31,035 bases of DNA, from IMG/VR virus record IMGVR_UViG_3300025418_000771, positions 1-31,035 of that record; one strand, written 5' to 3'. Source of the DNA: a virus. Position 1 is the first letter of the stretch; every line of letters begins with the position of its first letter. Made by a program: the position numbers and the translations under genes. Below are positions 3,234-24,021 of the stretch, in pieces. The notes beneath the pieces are model-generated. The model did no database searches. It was not told where the DNA came from and saw only the letters and a program-made list of their open reading frames with translations.

Positions 3234-3250
3234 TTATATTAATGCAAAAT
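3234..3250 (-). promoter_or_regulatory. Phage promoter core, copy 2
   Basis: Minus strand reads ATTTTGCATTAATATAA, one base from consensus at the last position. It faces the DUF2800 gene, whose start is 27 nt further on. Confidence 0.75.
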
Positions 3251-5073: not shown

Positions 5074-5090
5074 CTATATTAATGCAAAAT
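5074..5090 (-). promoter_or_regulatory. Phage promoter core, copy 3
   Basis: Exact ATTTTGCATTAATATAG on the minus strand. A TAGGGCG element lies 15 nt upstream of TTGCATT, the same spacing as in copies 7 and 8 on the other strand. It drives the 85-residue protein, tRNA-Thr, DUF6321-like, small terminase and endonuclease VII-like genes. Confidence 0.78.
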
Positions 5091-6306: not shown

Positions 6307-6475
6307 CTCTCATCTCCTTAAGGTGTTTTTCCATAATCTGTAACTCTTCCATGCTGTCACACACCCAGATTCCCAGTAAATCTTTAAAGCGGCTAGTGTC
6401 GATATCCTCCACACCAGTAAGCGTCTCCATAACATAGTAGCCTTTAATTTTGTGCTCGACAATAAAATGACTCAT
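6281..6475 (-). CDS. Hypothetical protein, 64 residues
   Basis: Opens MSHFIVEHKIKGYYVMETLT. The ATG at 6475 overlaps the TGA of the sigma region-4-like gene (ATGA), which decides against a longer frame. It includes GIWVCDSMEELQIMEKHLKEM. Function unknown. Confidence 0.65.
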   Translation of the reverse strand: MSHFIVEHKIKGYYVMETLTGVEDIDTSRFKDLLGIWVCDSMEELQIMEKHLKEMRDARSSKPT

Positions 6476-6774
6476 AGCTTTAATTCTTTCTTGATAAACT
6501 CGACGCCGCGTGAAAAATGATAACGCCAATACTTTTCGGTAACACAGATATCTGTATAGTTTAATCCGTCTAAGAATGCCTCCAAGATAAACTGCTGTTT
6601 GGGTGGCAGACGTTCAGAAATTAATCTACGGATATCTGCAATATCTTCGGCGTCCCAAGGCAGCCATCCCTCTATCAGGGTTGGAAAATTTAGATCGTTA
6701 CTGTCATCCTTTTCAATTGGATCGAGATCTTCGTCAGATAGTCTTGGCGCTACGGCTTTTATTTTTTTTATCAT
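6472..6774 (-). CDS. Sigma-70 region 4-like helix-turn-helix protein, 100 residues
   Basis: Residues 55-98 (LPPKQQFILEAFLDGLNYTDICVTEKYWRYHFSRGVEFIKKEL) follow the layout of sigma region 4 (LPxxQ..VL...L.GLSY.EIA...GVS...V......A...L), including the recognition-helix position. The N-terminal half is acidic with no sigma region 2. It could recognise a -35 element or touch the RNA polymerase flap like T4 gp33, which is inference. It overlaps the ketoacyl synthase stop by ATGA. The other sigma gene in the window (18097-18678) lacks region 4, so the two could be parts of one split factor. Confidence 0.55.
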   Translation of the reverse strand: MIKKIKAVAPRLSDEDLDPIEKDDSNDLNFPTLIEGWLPWDAEDIADIRRLISERLPPKQQFILEAFLDGLNYTDICVTEKYWRYHFSRGVEFIKKELKL

Positions 6775-7874
6775 ACCTGTGTGTCAAAAATTGCTGCTGA
6801 ATAAATATTTCCCATACCTGCTGCTAAACTTAAAATTCTATGCTGCCCCGTCATCTCTAATGGATAGGACAGATACTGATGATCCCGCCTTGTACGATTG
6901 GCAATTGCTGGTACTAGACCCTTCTTCATACTGTCTAGTAACAAACAAGTCTCTAGCAAACCGGATGCGCCCATCGTGTGACCAATACTTGGTTTGAACG
7001 ATGTTGCTACAAAGTTGTGATCAAAGACTGTCTTTAATGCGTTACGCTCTGATACATTGTTTGAATGTGTGCCGGTGCCATGTGTCTTTACTATATCAAT
7101 ATGTCGCGGACTCATGTTGGCATGTTTTAGCGCGCCGTATGCCGCTTTTATAAAACCCTCACCATCTTCACGTTGACCAATTGCGTTGGTGCTTTTTTCT
7201 GAGGCGTTGTATGAGCTAACTAAACGGGCTGCTGGATTCTTGGCATAACGTGCATTCTCAAAGACTGCCATCACAGCGCCCTGGCCAATATGAAAGCCAT
7301 GGTTTACGCCATCAAAAGCAGACGGTAGCACACCGGCGTCATCCTGTTCTTTAGTCAATACTGCTTTAGATTCACCAAAGAATTTTAATACGGTATTGCT
7401 GACCTGGTCTTCTACTGATACCACCACAACGCGATCAAAGCGATACATGTTAAATAACATCTGCACATCCATCATGACTTTGAGACTTGATGCGCATGCG
7501 CTTGCGTCAGTCAATATCATATCTTCCGCGCCGAACATTCTTGCCAATGTGCCGGCATAGACTTGCGTCAAGGTCAAGTGTGCAAACTTGTAATTGTAGC
7601 TAAGCTGCGTTGGTTTGATGTCTTTATTTAACCCAGCAAACTGTGTATTGCCTGCGGCCAAGATCAGGGCAGTGCGCCCCTCTCTGCTGCGGATATCTTC
7701 TACTAATTCTGGCACCAATAGTTTACTGGCCACCACGTGGGGAGCGTAGGCAAAACCCGATGATGCCTTAGCATAGCTTTCAGGAAACCAATGCACGCGC
7801 TGTGGATACTCTAAGTCATCCAATAGGTGCGTGTCTTGTGTGCAGACGGTTTTATAATCAGTTAGATATATCAC
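6771..7874 (-). CDS. Beta-ketoacyl synthase (thiolase fold, KAS/FabF-like), 367 residues
   Basis: Condenses an acyl chain with a malonyl unit on acyl carrier protein. The catalytic set is complete: nucleophile Cys127 in DASACASS, His265 in KTHGTGT, and Lys294/His299 in KPSIGHT, with the mid-domain AFDGVNHGFHIGQGA block (186-200). FabF enzymes are usually about 410 residues with the cysteine near 163, so the N-terminus is 30-40 residues shorter and lacks the usual RVVITG strand. I chose the GTG at 7874 because GGAGG lies at correct spacing and it gives a 17-nt overlap with the ACP gene; a start at 7931 would run deep into ACP. No transacylase or reductase gene is visible nearby, so it presumably works with host fatty-acid enzymes (inference). 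Confidence 0.88.
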   Translation of the reverse strand: MIYLTDYKTVCTQDTHLLDDLEYPQRVHWFPESYAKASSGFAYAPHVVASKLLVPELVEDIRSREGRTALILAAGNTQFAGLNKDIKPTQLSYNYKFAHLTLTQVYAGTLARMFGAEDMILTDASACASSLKVMMDVQMLFNMYRFDRVVVVSVEDQVSNTVLKFFGESKAVLTKEQDDAGVLPSAFDGVNHGFHIGQGAVMAVFENARYAKNPAARLVSSYNASEKSTNAIGQREDGEGFIKAAYGALKHANMSPRHIDIVKTHGTGTHSNNVSERNALKTVFDHNFVATSFKPSIGHTMGASGLLETCLLLDSMKKGLVPAIANRTRRDHQYLSYPLEMTGQHRILSLAAGMGNIYSAAIFDTQV

Positions 7875-8151
7875 TGAGGGCCGCCTCCACGCTAATAGGT
7901 TCTTTAGTCTTGTGCTGGCACATAAATTCAAACATATCGCGGACCGTTACTGGCTGCATGGTTTTAGCAATTTCTTCTGAGACACCATAGACGTCGCTCA
8001 AATAAATAGACACCATCAGCAGGTCCAGGCTGTCAAGCCCAGTCTCTGCGATTGGTGTATCCAGTGACGTGATGTTCACGCCATTGGAGTTGAGCGGTGT
8101 CGCTAATGCGACAACACCCTTGAGGAGTTCTAGTAGTTCTTTTTCGGTCAT
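7858..8151 (-). CDS. Acyl carrier protein, 97 residues
   Basis: A four-helix carrier that holds an acyl chain on a phosphopantetheine arm. The attachment motif is intact (ETGLDSLDLLM, Ser41), and helix II has the usual acidic pattern after it. The C-terminal ~20 residues (TKEPISVEAALSDISN) extend beyond a typical bacterial ACP. The ATG at 8151 lies three bases after the presumed start of promoter copy 4, with no ribosome site between, so the mRNA appears leaderless. It is the first gene of a long operon with the ketoacyl synthase. Host ACP synthase would be needed to charge it, since none is seen here. Confidence 0.88.
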   Translation of the reverse strand: MTEKELLELLKGVVALATPLNSNGVNITSLDTPIAETGLDSLDLLMVSIYLSDVYGVSEEIAKTMQPVTVRDMFEFMCQHKTKEPISVEAALSDISN

Positions 8152-8153
8152 GT

Positions 8154-8170
8154 CTATATTAATGCAAAAT
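8154..8170 (-). promoter_or_regulatory. Phage promoter core, copy 4 (inside helicase 3' end)
   Basis: Exact ATTTTGCATTAATATAG on the minus strand. It simultaneously encodes the last residues and the TAG stop of the helicase (NFALI-stop). The ACP start codon follows after a three-base gap including the presumed +1. Confidence 0.78.
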
Positions 8171-9497
8171 TTAAAGAGTCTAAAATTGCTTCTTGTAAAT
8201 TTATTTTACCTTCCAGGACCTTGATAACATGCTCATCAATACTATTAGACAACATTAGATGGTGTATAATAACCGGTTTTTCTTGCCCTTGGCGGTAAAT
8301 ACGTGCGTTGGCCTGGATGTAGTTTTCCGAAGACCATGGGAGGTCGAACCACACCGTTTGTGCAGTGTCACCAACGTTGCATTGTAGATTGAGGCCGATT
8401 CCCCCAGACTGGGGATGGGCAAGGAGCATACGAATCTCGCCGCGACGCCACGCCGCAATGTTGTCATCGTCCAGCACCACAGCTTGTGGGAATTGAAGAC
8501 GTAACCGCTGGAGGCTGTGCTTGAAGTGGTAGAACACCAACGTTGGCGAGGAAGACTCTTCCATGATCGACTCAAGGCGTTCCAGTTTAGCGCGGTGTAC
8601 TTCCTGCGTCTCTCCGTCTTCGCCATAAATTGCGCCGCTGGTGAATTGGAGTAACTTGCCCGCCAGTGTCGCCGCTGTCGGAGCTGTGATTTGCCCTTTA
8701 CCGAGGTCAGTGACCATGTCTTTTCTAAATTGATCATACTTGTCCTTTATGCTCTTTTCTAACTCAATCTTGTGGTAGATGTTACTTAGTGTCGGTAGTT
8801 GTAAATAATCTTGGGCTTTTAGTGACACGCAGATGTCCGATATTTTTTCCTGGATCTGCTGCTCGGCGCCTGGTTTTAATTTCCAGTTGTATACCACGTG
8901 GGTATGACGGTTGACCTGGTCCGGTTGCAGATACTTGTCCCTGAAGCGGGTGAGTGATGTCTCTAAACGCTCTCCTAAGTCCAATATACCCACCTGGGAC
9001 CAGAGATCAGCGATCCCCTGAGGGGTAGGTGTACCAGTAAGGATAATACGTCTCTCGAAGCTCTTTAAGTGTTTCTTCAGCGCTTTGAATCGCTTCGTCG
9101 ACGGATCCTTGAACCGGCTGCTTTCGTCGATGATTAGATTCTTGAATTTTTTCATCTCGGGCTGCTCGCATAGCCATGTCAAATTTTCTAGATTGACTAC
9201 GTACATATTCGAAGAACTCTTCAACGCTGTCAAACGATTCGCTGGAGATCCCATTACCTTGGCTATCTTTAAATGTTTTAGGTGTTCCCATTTACTTGCC
9301 TCTTCCATCCATACTGATTCTGCGACACGCTTAGGCGCAACGATAAGTGTCGGGCCATCAAACTGCTCCGCCAGTATCGTCATAGATGTCGTCGTCTTCC
9401 CCAAGCCCGGTGGCAGGAATAGTCCGATGTTGGGGGTGCATTTCGCTTTCCCAATCATCTCGATCTGATACGGGTGGAGTTGATCTCTGCGCAACAT
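8154..9497 (-). CDS. SNF2/DEAD-type superfamily 2 helicase, 447 residues
   Basis: ATP-dependent DNA translocase of the SNF2-like phage type. Visible motifs: Q-like LHPYQIEMI (8-15), Walker A LPPGLGKTT (28-36), motif Ia VAPKRV (53-58), Walker B LIIDESS (121-127), motif III LTGTP (153-157), and motif VI QANARIYRQGQ (395-405). It contains both RecA-like domains and is complete. It probably works in phage replication or recombination. Its first 140 nt overlap, in another frame, the end of the VRR nuclease gene. Confidence 0.9.
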   Translation of the reverse strand: MLRRDQLHPYQIEMIGKAKCTPNIGLFLPPGLGKTTTSMTILAEQFDGPTLIVAPKRVAESVWMEEASKWEHLKHLKIAKVMGSPANRLTALKSSSNMYVVNLENLTWLCEQPEMKKFKNLIIDESSRFKDPSTKRFKALKKHLKSFERRIILTGTPTPQGIADLWSQVGILDLGERLETSLTRFRDKYLQPDQVNRHTHVVYNWKLKPGAEQQIQEKISDICVSLKAQDYLQLPTLSNIYHKIELEKSIKDKYDQFRKDMVTDLGKGQITAPTAATLAGKLLQFTSGAIYGEDGETQEVHRAKLERLESIMEESSSPTLVFYHFKHSLQRLRLQFPQAVVLDDDNIAAWRRGEIRMLLAHPQSGGIGLNLQCNVGDTAQTVWFDLPWSSENYIQANARIYRQGQEKPVIIHHLMLSNSIDEHVIKVLEGKINLQEAILDSLNFALI

Positions 9498-15213: not shown

Positions 15214-15230
15214 GTATATTAATGCAAAAA
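15214..15230 (-). promoter_or_regulatory. Phage promoter core, copy 5
   Basis: Minus strand reads TTTTTGCATTAATATAC (two differences from consensus, at the ends). The primase-helicase ATG follows after three bases. The palindrome at 15244-15260 ends at the same distance upstream as in copy 1. Confidence 0.75.
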
Positions 15231-15564: not shown

Positions 15565-16182
15565 CTATAACGATCCACTGATTACCCCTTCTGCCTTCTT
15601 AACAAACCGGTCGATGTTGATATTATCCCTGCACTCAAATAGGTGGTAGGTCGTGTCGGCATAGTTCGTGCCAATACCGTATGACATAGGCCTACCTGGC
15701 AGGTTCCATTTTGGAACCTCAAAGTCCTTGACCGGCAAAAACTCGACCGGCATCTTGCGGTAGTTCCAGCTGTCGGTCAGCATCTGAGCCACGTCCCCAT
15801 CATAGGTCGCCTTGCACGATGGCTTACCCACACCACGCCACACCCTGCGGTTGACGCATAGGAATGACGGGGCTGCGAATAACCTGGAGGGATCAAGGTG
15901 GTTGGAGGCCTGCTCGTTACCGATTAGGATACCCCTGGCAGCCTTCTCGATGCAGTGGTGCACCTTGTCCTTGTCCAGGGGAATGCAGTCAATGTCAAAG
16001 AAGACCAGGACGTCCAGGTCATCATGACGGTTAATTACCCAGTCCATCCACTCACCGTGATCCAGTCCATGGATCTTGTGCTGGGCTGCCGGGATCCCAA
16101 AGTGGTCCATTACCTTCTTTTGATAGTAGGCCACTCTCGGATCTAGGTTGTCCCAGTAGAGTGAGAATAGTGCTGCGTTCAT
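15565..16182 (-). CDS. Putative GT-A glycosyltransferase, 205 residues
   Basis: Opens MNAALFSLYWDNLDPRVAYY. A FFDIDCIPL segment (61-69) provides the DxD metal/nucleotide-sugar motif (Asp63, Asp65) after a run of hydrophobic strand. Later NRRVWRGVG and NYADTTYHLFECR resemble glycosyltransferase acceptor regions only loosely. The ATG at 16182 overlaps the upstream stop. Last gene of the glycosyltransferase cluster. Target (phage DNA, virion or host surface) unknown. Confidence 0.6.
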   Translation of the reverse strand: MNAALFSLYWDNLDPRVAYYQKKVMDHFGIPAAQHKIHGLDHGEWMDWVINRHDDLDVLVFFDIDCIPLDKDKVHHCIEKAARGILIGNEQASNHLDPSRLFAAPSFLCVNRRVWRGVGKPSCKATYDGDVAQMLTDSWNYRKMPVEFLPVKDFEVPKWNLPGRPMSYGIGTNYADTTYHLFECRDNINIDRFVKKAEGVISGSL

Positions 16183-16370
16183 TGCGGTACCTCGTAGCCA
16201 AGTTGTTTTACCATCTTGACTGCCCACTCGCGGAAAAATTTACGGTGCTCTGCGTCCTGGGGATCATTCTCGTCCCACACCACGTCCACGATATGGCTGC
16301 CGTGTACGTCGTAGTATTCAATCTTGATTAGATCGCCGTTCTCAAGTATTTCGTGTCCGATTGCTATCAT
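16179..16370 (-). CDS. Hypothetical protein, 63 residues
   Basis: Opens MIAIGHEILENGDLIKIEYY and ends QLGYEVPQ. Acidic middle (VVWDENDPQDAE). Sandwiched between two glycosyltransferase genes with 4-nt overlaps on both sides, so probably co-translated. No fold recognised. Confidence 0.6.
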   Translation of the reverse strand: MIAIGHEILENGDLIKIEYYDVHGSHIVDVVWDENDPQDAEHRKFFREWAVKMVKQLGYEVPQ

Positions 16371-17119
16371 TGTCTGTCGCTCCTTGTTAGTCCACCACTA
16401 AAAATATAAGTACCGGTGTGGGTTAGTTTGGCCCACGGTGCTGCATAGATTTTAAAACCATTCTCACGTGCCAGGTCACAGAAGTGGTAGTCCTCAGATA
16501 GGTAGCGGTTATCAGCTGGTGAGATAGATGTGTCGAAGATGTTAGCGATCAGTGTACCTACGTACTGGGGATTGACCATGGTAAACATGTCATTGGAATA
16601 CTTCGGCGCCACCTCTGTTAACTTTTGGATTACCTTACGCTCGATAAGCATAAAGCCTGTGCCACCCTTCTCAATCTCGATGGGTTGATCAATACGTCCA
16701 GTGACGTCCTTCTTACCGATGGTGTTGACCACGAATGATCCAGTGTACTCATGCAGCTTATCTGCCGGCACACCACGTCCCACAGCGGCGTGTACCTCAT
16801 GCCAGTTGATTTCTTTCTTGGGGTAGATACCACAGATGACGTCCACTTTGGCGCGTACCATCTGCACGATATCGTACGGCTGCCAGCTGATGTCAGCATC
16901 AATAAACATCAGGTGCGTGCAGTCAGATTTTAAGAAGTCATGCGCCAGTCTGTTGCGTGCACGTGTGATGAGAGACTCGTTGAGCATCATGGAGAATGAC
17001 ATCTCAATACCATTTTGACCCAGCACCGATGGTGTGGATGTCAGGTTGATCGCGTACGTGCCGGTGCACATGCCACCGTACATTGGTGTCGCTATGAAGA
17101 TTTTCGGTTTTTGGTCCAT
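16367..17119 (-). CDS. Glycosyltransferase family 2-like protein, 250 residues
   Basis: Opens MDQKPKIFIATPMYGGMCTG. The block NESLITRARNRLAHDFLKSDCTHLMFIDADISW contains the DxD motif (Asp74, Asp76) and is typical of phage GT-A enzymes. GGTGFMLIERKV and YLSEDYHFCDLA follow, the latter supplying the ED catalytic-base region. The gene overlaps the upstream glycosyltransferase by 28 nt. Acceptor unknown. Confidence 0.78.
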   Translation of the reverse strand: MDQKPKIFIATPMYGGMCTGTYAINLTSTPSVLGQNGIEMSFSMMLNESLITRARNRLAHDFLKSDCTHLMFIDADISWQPYDIVQMVRAKVDVICGIYPKKEINWHEVHAAVGRGVPADKLHEYTGSFVVNTIGKKDVTGRIDQPIEIEKGGTGFMLIERKVIQKLTEVAPKYSNDMFTMVNPQYVGTLIANIFDTSISPADNRYLSEDYHFCDLARENGFKIYAAPWAKLTHTGTYIFSGGLTRSDRQ

Positions 17120-17787
17120 GGATAATTTCCTTTGTAGTGTTGTAAAGTTGCGTCGTTGCCCTGGCGGTGCATTGCCTCATGATGCGGACGCACTCGATAG
17201 TTAATCGTGTGCTCACCGTTGCAGTCAAACTCCGGTAATAATTTTTCCATGTCACCATAAAACAATCGGTCCATGAAGAATGAGTCACCAAAAAATTTAT
17301 ATGAGTGACGCATTAGATACTTACGCTTAAAGCAATAACAATTGGTGTCGACAAAATGATGGTTGGGCGCGAAGACCGATGGCCACTTACCCAGGCTCTC
17401 ACAGTTGTCGGCGATAACAAACTCACCTTGCTGATTTACGATATTGCGAAGACTATACGCCCACTGCAGGTCACGCTCCTGTATAAAGTTCACCAGTCGC
17501 TCAACGTGCTCAGGCTCAAACCAATTGTCCTCGTCCAGGAATAGGATATAGTCTGCATCCGTGAGCATTGGGAATGCTGCATAGATACGGTGACCGTTGT
17601 ACCCATCATGGCCAGTGTTCTCGGGCAATAATATGGTCTTGCCGTTCGCATATACTTTAAACTCATTGTCAACGCGCCCATCACAAACAATCAAATGCTC
17701 TGTAGGAATGGTTTGATTCTTCACGCTGTCAATGGCCTGCTGCACGTGCTTGGTACCAATTGTCGGTGTGATTACTTGGATTCTCAT
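17092..17787 (-). CDS. Glycosyltransferase family 2 protein, 231 residues
   Basis: Opens MRIQVITPTIGTKHVQQAID, the usual GT2 start, followed by ADYILFLDEDNWFEPEHV with the DxD motif (Asp85, Asp87) and a late HHEAMHRQGN region. I chose the ATG at 17787 because GGAG lies just upstream; the longer open frame to 18054 has no protein similarity. First glycosyltransferase of the cluster. Confidence 0.8.
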   Translation of the reverse strand: MRIQVITPTIGTKHVQQAIDSVKNQTIPTEHLIVCDGRVDNEFKVYANGKTILLPENTGHDGYNGHRIYAAFPMLTDADYILFLDEDNWFEPEHVERLVNFIQERDLQWAYSLRNIVNQQGEFVIADNCESLGKWPSVFAPNHHFVDTNCYCFKRKYLMRHSYKFFGDSFFMDRLFYGDMEKLLPEFDCNGEHTINYRVRPHHEAMHRQGNDATLQHYKGNYPWTKNRKSS

Positions 17788-17788
17788 A

Positions 17789-18100
17789 TCACTCCTTCGA
17801 GTATGCCGGTGCCACGTCCCAGTTGTCTGCCTTACCATAATCACCACGCGATGAGCGCATGCGTTCCTGGTCCCTGAATGCCGGCTCAATCTTCCACCAG
17901 GATGCAGATGCCTCCTTGTACTCAATCCAGTCATCATTCTCGATATAGAATGGATGGTTAAACCCAGCCACCTCGATGCACTCGAGCACGTCCGCTTGCC
18001 GGATCCACTTCTTGGCACGCTTGGGCCCCAGTCCCATCTTATCCCTTGCAACAATAAAGCGGTTGTACGCTTTTTGCTGCTCGTCTGTTAGTTGTATCAC
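17789..18100 (-). CDS. Hypothetical protein, 103 residues
   Basis: Opens MIQLTDEQQKAYNRFIVARD. Tryptophan-rich second half (DDWIEYKEASASWWKIEPAF). It overlaps the sigma-factor stop by 4 nt and ends just before the GT2 gene. Function unknown. Confidence 0.62.
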   Translation of the reverse strand: MIQLTDEQQKAYNRFIVARDKMGLGPKRAKKWIRQADVLECIEVAGFNHPFYIENDDWIEYKEASASWWKIEPAFRDQERMRSSRGDYGKADNWDVAPAYSKE

Positions 18101-18678
18101 TCTTCATTCTCCTCGTTAAACTTCTCATTCTCTAGTGCGTCCAAACTGATGGGCTCACGGGTTAGGTAACTCTCTAACTGGTGCACGCGTCCGGTTGATA
18201 CGTTTAACACCTTGGCCAGCTCCGATGTTGTCGGTGCACGTCCCAGGATCTGCGACAAGGCCTGCTCTTCGTATCGCATCTTCTTGATGGCCTCCATGAT
18301 GTTGACTGGCAGTCGGATCACGTTTTCTGTGTTGTTCAGTTCGCGCAATACAAAGCGCCGGATGAATGCACACGCATAAGATGAGAACCGTACGCCCTTG
18401 GTTGGTTTCCAACGACGTGCTGCGAGCAATAAGGCCTCGTTGCCCATCTGAATCAAATCGTCCATTGGTGTCTTACCATGGTGCCAGGCTGTCATCTTGC
18501 TAGATACCATGTAGGGTACCAGTCGCAGATTATGCCTAACTAACTCGTCGTAGGCATCCTCGTCACCCTTGGCGATACGATGACCCAGTTCGTGCTCGTA
18601 GGCCAGTGGTAGTGTAGATATATCCATGGCCATGAGCTCCTGGAGATAGTCTGTCTTAATATCATTATGTTCGTTCAA
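18097..18678 (-). CDS. Sigma-70 family factor with regions 2 and 3 but no region 4, 193 residues
   Basis: Directs RNA polymerase to promoters. Region 1.2/2.1 is LGHRIAKGDEDAYDELVRHNLRLVPYM (31-57); region 2.2 is DLIQMGNEALLLAARRW (74-90), the polymerase-clamp contact; regions 2.3-2.4 are GVRFSSYACAFIRRFVLREL...VIRLP (95-124), which melts and reads the -10; region 3 is LGRAPTTSELAKVLNVSTGRVHQLESYL (145-172). The chain ends PISLDALENEKFNEENEE, where region 4 would normally follow. Housekeeping sigmas are far longer. A separate region-4-like protein is at 6472-6774. It probably serves the phage promoter family (inference). A weaker promoter copy lies at 18712-18728, 34 nt before the start. Confidence 0.85.
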   Translation of the reverse strand: MNEHNDIKTDYLQELMAMDISTLPLAYEHELGHRIAKGDEDAYDELVRHNLRLVPYMVSSKMTAWHHGKTPMDDLIQMGNEALLLAARRWKPTKGVRFSSYACAFIRRFVLRELNNTENVIRLPVNIMEAIKKMRYEEQALSQILGRAPTTSELAKVLNVSTGRVHQLESYLTREPISLDALENEKFNEENEE

Positions 18679-22759: not shown

Positions 22760-22776
22760 TTTTTGCATTAATATAG
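22760..22776 (+). promoter_or_regulatory. Phage promoter core, copy 6
   Basis: TTTTTGCATTAATATAG on the plus strand, first rightward copy. The ATG of the 109-residue gene follows after GGT counted from +1. Likely promoter for the terminase region. Confidence 0.78.
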
Positions 22777-22778
22777 GT

Positions 22779-23108
22779 ATGAGCAGGTACGTATATCAAA
22801 TACAGGGGGCATTGGAAGATGCCAGTGGTAGACTTAGAGGTCTACGGGTCTTGGTATGTGATTTGTATAATTTTGAATCGGTGGATGTTCCAATCGAAAT
22901 CTTAGACAGAGAAACAGCACGCTACCTGCAATTTAGGATGAATGTGACAGAATCGGCGCCCAACATCGCCAAGCTGCCATACTCCGTTCAAAACAACATA
23001 CGAGTGCCGTTAGGGCGCTGGCTGGACCGTTGGGTCCTCACTAATTTTCATGGCGATAGCATCAAATCAACGAATACTAACCCTGGACCTATGGAAACTG
23101 GCCTCTGA
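22779..23108 (+). CDS. Hypothetical protein, 109 residues
   Basis: Opens MSRYVYQIQGALEDASGRLR. First rightward gene; its start codon is placed as a leaderless start from promoter copy 6. It has LRGLRVLVCDLYNFESVDVPIEIL and a basic-aromatic LGRWLDRWVLTNF. It overlaps the Hint-domain gene by 59 nt in another frame. No family recognised. Confidence 0.65.
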   Translation: MSRYVYQIQGALEDASGRLRGLRVLVCDLYNFESVDVPIEILDRETARYLQFRMNVTESAPNIAKLPYSVQNNIRVPLGRWLDRWVLTNFHGDSIKSTNTNPGPMETGL

Positions 23109-24021
23109 GATTAGGCCAGGCGATTACCTGTTTAACAACGATGGTCAACTGGTACAGGTAAAAAGCATTCACCCCTACGTATCCAACGAATGCTATGAGG
23201 TGGAGTTTGATGACCACGTCACGATTTGTGGCGATAAACACCTGGCATTCATGCTGGAAAACCCCAAGTACCGCAAAAGATTGCGAGAATACAAAGGAGT
23301 ACATAAATTTCGGCGCCCACTACGGCGCTATAGCGTCTTGGATATTGTGGAGTCTGGCGAAAACTTATCAATGCCGACTACCAAGCCGTTGCAGTTCCCA
23401 CACCAAGATCTACCCATACCACCATTCTTGTTAGGATTTTGGTTCCTGGGTAAGAGAGCCAACAAGACGATGGTACCATCGCCAGGTTGGTCAGAATTTA
23501 TACACCAAAAATTTAAAGACGCGGGGTACAAGATTACAACCCACCGGCTTAGGATGAACAACGAGCGTGAGTTTAAGTGCCACCCCAGTATCGAATCTCA
23601 GCTGGCGCCGTTTATTCCTAAAAAAATTCCGGCCAGATATCTTTACGCATCGGTTGAGCAAAGAATTGAGCTGCTGTCTGGATTAGTCTACGCAAGACGC
23701 GGACACTACAATGTTAAGAATGACGAGTTTGTTTTTACGTCAAAGAACCGAGAGCTTATGAATCAGATTCGTTTTTTGGCCGAATCACTCGGCAGCAAAA
23801 CGTTTACGATTCAGAAAAAAGACACGGGTTCATTCGTGATGAACTTTAAAACTTACATTAAATTAATTGATACGCAGGTATCTAAACCACTAAAGATTCA
23901 TTACGGTAGGCGGTACATACCAGAGATTAGACAAGTTAAACCCCAATCGTGTGTGCACATCGAGACAGATGGCGCAAATAACACATTCTTGGTAGGCGAA
24001 GGATTTATTTCAGCATGCTGA
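23050..24021 (+). CDS. Orphan Hint-domain protein with degenerate LAGLIDADG endonuclease, 323 residues
   Basis: An intein-like Hint fold with homing endonuclease that is no longer inside a host protein. Block A/B-like segments are ILTLDLWKLASEIRPGDYLF (10-28) and CGDKHLAF (60-67). The endonuclease helices are FLLGFWFLGK (126-135) and LLSGLVYARRG (208-218), where acidic residues expected after each glycine helix are Lys and Arg, so cleavage activity is doubtful. The C-terminal block is VHIETDGANNTFLVGEGFISAC, with no final His-Asn. The catalytic first Cys is also absent, so splicing is not expected. It overlaps the large terminase start by 7 nt. Confidence 0.78.
   Translation: MAIASNQRILTLDLWKLASEIRPGDYLFNNDGQLVQVKSIHPYVSNECYEVEFDDHVTICGDKHLAFMLENPKYRKRLREYKGVHKFRRPLRRYSVLDIVESGENLSMPTTKPLQFPHQDLPIPPFLLGFWFLGKRANKTMVPSPGWSEFIHQKFKDAGYKITTHRLRMNNEREFKCHPSIESQLAPFIPKKIPARYLYASVEQRIELLSGLVYARRGHYNVKNDEFVFTSKNRELMNQIRFLAESLGSKTFTIQKKDTGSFVMNFKTYIKLIDTQVSKPLKIHYGRRYIPEIRQVKPQSCVHIETDGANNTFLVGEGFISAC

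Follow-up and report, generated by a model that had tools for sequence, protein, structure and literature searches.

N-myristoylation of animal-virus proteins is carried out by a host enzyme with acyl-CoA as the donor. LuxI-type enzymes have the GNAT fold, use acyl-ACP (acyl carrier protein) and make acyl-homoserine lactones. HlyC and CdiC (class IV CDI) are also GNAT-type; they take the acyl group from acyl-ACP and attach it to lysines of a protein encoded beside them, and the modified residue co-varies with the enzyme (PMC8510554). Both use the ACP of the host. ACPs have been reported in phages as auxiliary metabolic genes (vB_EliS-R6L, R22Y and R16F), and a fabG-acpP-fabF set in a Roseobacter prophage (PMC5463345, PMC11705849, PMC10152775, PMC8224337).

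The locus described here resembles these phage and prophage examples, some of which include fabF, in carrying a phage-borne ACP, but its ACP gene overlaps that of a ketoacyl synthase (KS) and the pair is tied to a GNAT-fold virion gene, an arrangement not described in those papers. It shares with HlyC and CdiC a GNAT-type gene adjoining the proposed substrate, a proposed acyl-ACP donor and a co-varying residue. It differs in that the phage module brings its own ACP and KS and in that the proposed acceptor is an N-terminus; no sequence match between HlyC or CdiC and the phage GNAT-fold protein was found here. The likeness to N-myristoylation is that a viral protein in contact with a membrane would carry a lipid at its N-terminus, whereas the donor would be the phage's own ACP. 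Our preferred reading, to which we give a probability of about 0.4, is that ACP and KS supply the donor in a phage protein-acylation module in which the GNAT-fold protein would acylate the N-terminus of the neighbouring virion protein.

The window, that is, the whole stretch of DNA analysed (31,035 nt), is a 31-kb fragment from an IMG/VR virus record and ends short of the GNAT region. Its main features are listed below, context A being the arrangement to which the window belongs.

6472–6774, minus strand: gene directly 3′ of the KS gene in context A; 100 aa, without a family match; a conserved neighbour in 71 loci
6771–7874, minus strand: ketoacyl synthase, FabF-like, 367 aa from GTG 7874, with Cys127, His265, Lys294 and His299 (numbered from the GTG)
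7858–8151, minus strand: ACP, 97 aa, with the phosphopantetheine site Ser41 (GLDSLD) and a conserved C-terminal tail with Pro85
7884–7888, minus strand: Shine-Dalgarno-like GGAGG preceding the KS start, within the overlapping ACP gene (read directly from the sequence)
8154–9497, minus strand: SNF2-type helicase, directly upstream of ACP; conserved beside the pair in context A
8156–8169, minus strand: the promoter-like repeat TTTTGCATTAATAT (14 nt), one copy, which overlaps the 3′ end of the helicase gene and lies 4 nt ahead of the ACP ATG
1515–1528, 3236–3249, 5076–5089, 8156–8169 and 15216–15229, minus strand, and 22761–22774, plus strand: exact copies of TTTTGCATTAATAT, ahead of several genes

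The KS is likely to start at GTG 7874, giving a protein of 367 aa. This codon lies 9 nt behind the GGAGG, inside the ACP gene, and the KS start overlaps the ACP stop. A start at TTG 7931 was considered and rejected in favour of the GTG behind GGAGG (7888–7884). The 14-mer is likely to be what the initial annotation called an exact promoter copy when it placed the pair at the head of an operon. The repeat is genuine (six exact copies in the window and nine at up to two mismatches, against 0.46 expected), and its promoter role is putative. Since the copy ahead of ACP overlaps the last codons of the helicase gene and stops 4 nt short of the ACP start codon, the pair lies inside a helicase-led gene run and is not clearly an operon head. 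A sigma-70-like factor encoded in the window (18097–18678, minus strand) might read the 14-mer. Elsewhere, three ORFs at 15565–18054 (minus strand) resemble small glycosyltransferases by eye, one of them matching phrog_1574 (function unknown), and a small ORF together with a Hint/intein-like ORF (Hint by eye) occupies 22779–24021 (plus strand) directly ahead of the terminase gene; the latter two ORFs are also present in the relatives G001 and G005.

The ACP was annotated from the outset as intact, and this was borne out: Ser41 is invariant in 75/75 relatives, DSxD is present in 74 of the 75, and a profile built from 27 ACP relatives aligns in register with dozens of ACPs of known structure in the PDB (best E 7.5e-5). 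The Pfam PP-binding family is matched by 20 of the 27 members, the window ACP alone scoring 19.2 bits, just below the cut-off of 20.8. The tail described as an extension does exist, as a trait conserved across the family: Pro85 is invariant in the 27 sampled ACPs and present in 73/75. Genes for AcpS, the holo-ACP synthase, occur in five related context A loci, some ten genes away from the pair, and none was found within the window fragment. All AcpS-type genes scanned, in three loci, pass an NCBIfam PPTase cut-off (TIGR00516 in L107 and L073; TIGR00556 in L107, L073 and L051). The presence of an AcpS-type transferase in five related loci suggests, from gene content, that the phage ACP is used in its holo form.

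The KS matches the N and C domains of the Pfam ketoacyl-synt family, and its AlphaFold model adopts the FabF fold over its full length (pLDDT 93, Z 41, 350 residues aligned). Its score against the fabF model TIGR03150 (9.5e-33, 113.5 bits) does not reach the curated equivalog cut-off of 493.75 bits, and it is thus FabF-like and not FabF. It shares with FabF/KAS II the fold and the catalytic Cys-His-His and Lys; it is about 45 residues shorter and about 20% identical, and the FabF gate motif GFGGTN is replaced by an invariant AGMGN. The full Cys-His-His site noted initially was confirmed: the catalytic Cys, both His and the Lys are unchanged in 87/87 non-redundant KSs, even though pairwise identity falls to 44%. 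The KS presumably catalyses condensation. The possibility that it is an inactive paralogue, which the initial annotation had raised as grounds for rejection, was rejected on these residues together with a dN/dS of about 0.04. This value was obtained for both ACP and KS against the closest relative (L006) and is approximate, dS being high; both genes are intact and under purifying selection. The ACP and KS genes overlap near-constantly across loci, which supports the earlier suggestion that the two proteins are adapted to each other.

The pair had been regarded as rare cargo, which is wrong. A pattern scan of IMG/VR confirmed 540 KS relatives, of which the best 80 were used, and further scans brought the number of related KS loci examined to 160. 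The overlapping pair was found across these 160 loci, which belong to one phage lineage of uncultured, mostly freshwater bacterial viruses. Among annotated phages, a close KS relative occurs only in MW202545.1 (Manatee Spring). When 84,980 genomes of bacteria and archaea were scanned twice, with short patterns which distant cellular KS kin can escape, there was one close match, on a Balneolaceae MAG contig. With this single cellular match the KS looks like a separate phage family rather than recent host DNA. Recent acquisition from a host was rejected, as these scans gave no close cellular relative apart from this contig, which itself has the phage KS-GNAT arrangement. The contig in question (L207, JAGYJQ010000016.1), binned as Balneolaceae, shows this arrangement followed by a gene starting MSAVV, and is the sole hint of a host or prophage.

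The loci fall into two contexts. In context A (79 loci, including the window) the pair lies behind the helicase gene, in an early operon; in context B (81 loci) it sits between a gp10-like virion protein gene and a run of large virion-operon genes. The portal, terminase and other virion genes are common to genomes of both contexts, and the KS tree requires at least four switches between them. Caulobacter phages (e.g. KcrB), Roseobacter phage CRP-901 and Pelagibacter phage HTVC027P have the virion module and are without ACP and KS. KcrB shares the same virion module, the best matches of module-family members being 83% for the capsid and 57–59% for portal and terminase, but lacks the ACP, KS and GNAT genes. 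The two genes flanking the ACP-KS-GNAT module in context B abut in KcrB and the equivalent virion protein starts MMGDEILVV, so that this phage represents a natural empty site.

The place of the pair in an early gene run in context A is not obviously suited to a late role in the virion and counts against our preferred reading. It is in line with metabolic cargo, in which ACP and KS would boost or redirect host fatty-acid synthesis and so alter membrane lipids. The FabF fold and catalytic residues of the KS are also in keeping with this, and phage ACPs and prophage fabG-acpP-fabF sets have been read in this way (PMC8224337, PMC11705849). We nevertheless regard it as unlikely, as it leaves unexplained the location of the pair among virion genes in the 81 context B loci, its co-occurrence with a GNAT-fold protein and the N-terminal signature described below.

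The initial annotation saw no partner enzymes nearby, which holds for the 31-kb fragment only: relatives carry a GNAT-fold partner, outside the window. The gene that follows KS in context B codes for a protein of about 150 aa with a predicted GNAT fold (AlphaFold pLDDT 88), and all 50 VIA matches listed for the model are GNAT-type acyltransferases (best Z 11.7). The fold is visible only from the predicted structure, as a PDB sequence search and Pfam gave no useful match; 28 members of the family were without a Pfam match. No homology to gp34 of Roseobacter phage CRP-901 was detected. With regard to the catalytic His/Asp pair of toxin-activating acyltransferases (HlyC/CdiC), Asp94 is conserved, but a His occupies position 77 in only 22/28 members. 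In context A genomes the GNAT gene remains in the virion operon, separate from ACP-KS (G005, G009). Neither the window nor G001, the long relative closest to it, extends as far as this region, so the partner of the window virus itself is presumed from its relatives. The KS is present on 66/70 contigs with the GNAT gene, the remaining four being fragments. Conversely, among records that extend this far, those with a KS have the gene in 12/12 cases and KS-negative relatives of 45 kb or more in 0/18 (Fisher p ~1e-8, ignoring phylogeny). As the genomes compared are related, such counts cannot be treated as independent, and the majority of the contigs are incomplete.

On some contigs whose virion gene is near that of G001, a more divergent GNAT-like protein replaces the strong orthologue, so that the window's clade may have either kind. 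On L312, L333, L339, L356 and L361, in which no KS was detected, such a protein fills this slot of the virion operon, and the protein encoded after it starts with MS or MG, without the AVV motif found elsewhere.

In our preferred reading the GNAT-fold protein would be an enzyme. The CoA-binding loop Q/R-x-x-G-x-G/A is absent, NADTAxNF standing in its place, and this could reflect a loss of catalysis. The protein might then be a non-catalytic virion assembly factor, whose link with ACP-KS would be due to joint inheritance of a gene block: a fold by itself gives no function, and the divergent proteins in the same slot on contigs without a KS found fit such a role and speak against an acylation module. 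We consider this less likely than metabolic cargo; the strong orthologue goes together with the KS in the 12/12 and 0/18 comparison, even where ACP-KS sits in another operon.

The gene directly 3′ of the GNAT gene encodes a large virion-operon protein which, by gene position, is likely to be internal or ejected; in MW202545 an SLT-domain protein is encoded further downstream. Its N-terminus carries a characteristic signature. The start M[GSAT][AG][VI][VIA], roughly M-(S/G/A)-A-V-V, is found in 47/60 of these proteins against 3/2096 other conserved genes, one of the three being a homologue. Residue 2 is small and permits Met removal in 55/55, and the N-terminal segment is predicted by hydrophobic moment to form a strongly amphipathic helix (median z 4.8). 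The signature is absent from the same-position protein of KS-negative KcrB-like relatives (0/18), and Val makes up 5% of the first 60 residues in these relatives versus 23% with the module. In a further set, collected by means of another gene, an M-G-(A/G)-V start comes directly after the strong GNAT gene at 9/10 loci; L326 is a strong GNAT locus without the motif. These counts refer to the gene directly after GNAT, whereas a tally of whichever gene precedes the next conserved one of the virion operon gives only 8/21, which understates the link because an extra gene is present there in some loci. Where the GNAT-like protein is divergent, residue 2 of the next gene product is S or G but AVV is missing, so the signature tracks the strong GNAT orthologue and not any GNAT-like protein. 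We infer from these sequence patterns that the N-terminus may be the acyl acceptor.

The same genes could instead acylate a lysine, or another virion or host protein, by analogy with HlyC and CdiC, which modify lysines from acyl-ACP (PMC8510554). This appears improbable, since the protein after GNAT has no conserved Lys among its first 40 residues, while the first five are strongly conserved. Least probable is that the GNAT-fold protein releases a diffusible acyl product for signalling or interference in the manner of LuxI, for although Foldseek matches its model to, among others, TofI (3p2h), which is of LuxI type, many ordinary GNATs outrank this enzyme and the virion-operon place beside a protein with a co-varying N-terminus is not accounted for.

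The initial annotation had offered four roles for the pair: redirecting host fatty-acid synthesis, remodelling the membrane, making a small acyl product or acylating a phage protein. Comparative evidence favours the last because the pair, which is intact and co-inherited, co-occurs with the GNAT-fold protein and with the adjoining N-terminal signature. In the acylation module that we propose, the AcpS of the host, or that of the phage in some relatives, would load phosphopantetheine onto Ser41 of the phage ACP. The KS Cys would then take up an acyl chain and condense it with malonyl carried on the phage ACP, yielding a dedicated (3-oxo)acyl-ACP which may or may not be reduced by host enzymes. 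The GNAT-fold protein would draw the acyl group from the phage ACP, and not from CoA, and move it to the Met-processed N-terminus (Ser, Gly or Ala) of the large protein encoded directly after it. Because this N-terminus is a predicted amphipathic helix, an attached lipid would ease the passage of the protein into the host membrane as the DNA is ejected. This chain is weakest at the catalytic activity predicted for the GNAT-fold protein and at the nature of the acyl group; the ACP as donor and the role in ejection are likewise presumed. More tentatively, the lineage as a whole may run its own fatty-acylation, with ACP, KS, a GNAT-type acyltransferase and sometimes AcpS, the lipid on the N-terminus of the virion protein serving to anchor this protein in the host membrane when the genome is delivered.

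In the open-access literature searched there is no report of a phage virion protein acylated by a phage-encoded system, nor of an ACP-KS-GNAT module. Whether or not the proposed mechanism is right, a lineage-wide ACP-KS pair linked to a protein of GNAT fold from the virion operon had not been described there. If it is right, this would be the first such case found of a bacteriophage producing its own lipid donor to acylate a virion protein, and the entry of such proteins into the host membrane during DNA ejection would become testable. It would also explain the puzzling ACP and ketosynthase genes of phages and provide an orthogonal ACP-KS-acyltransferase set for protein lipidation.
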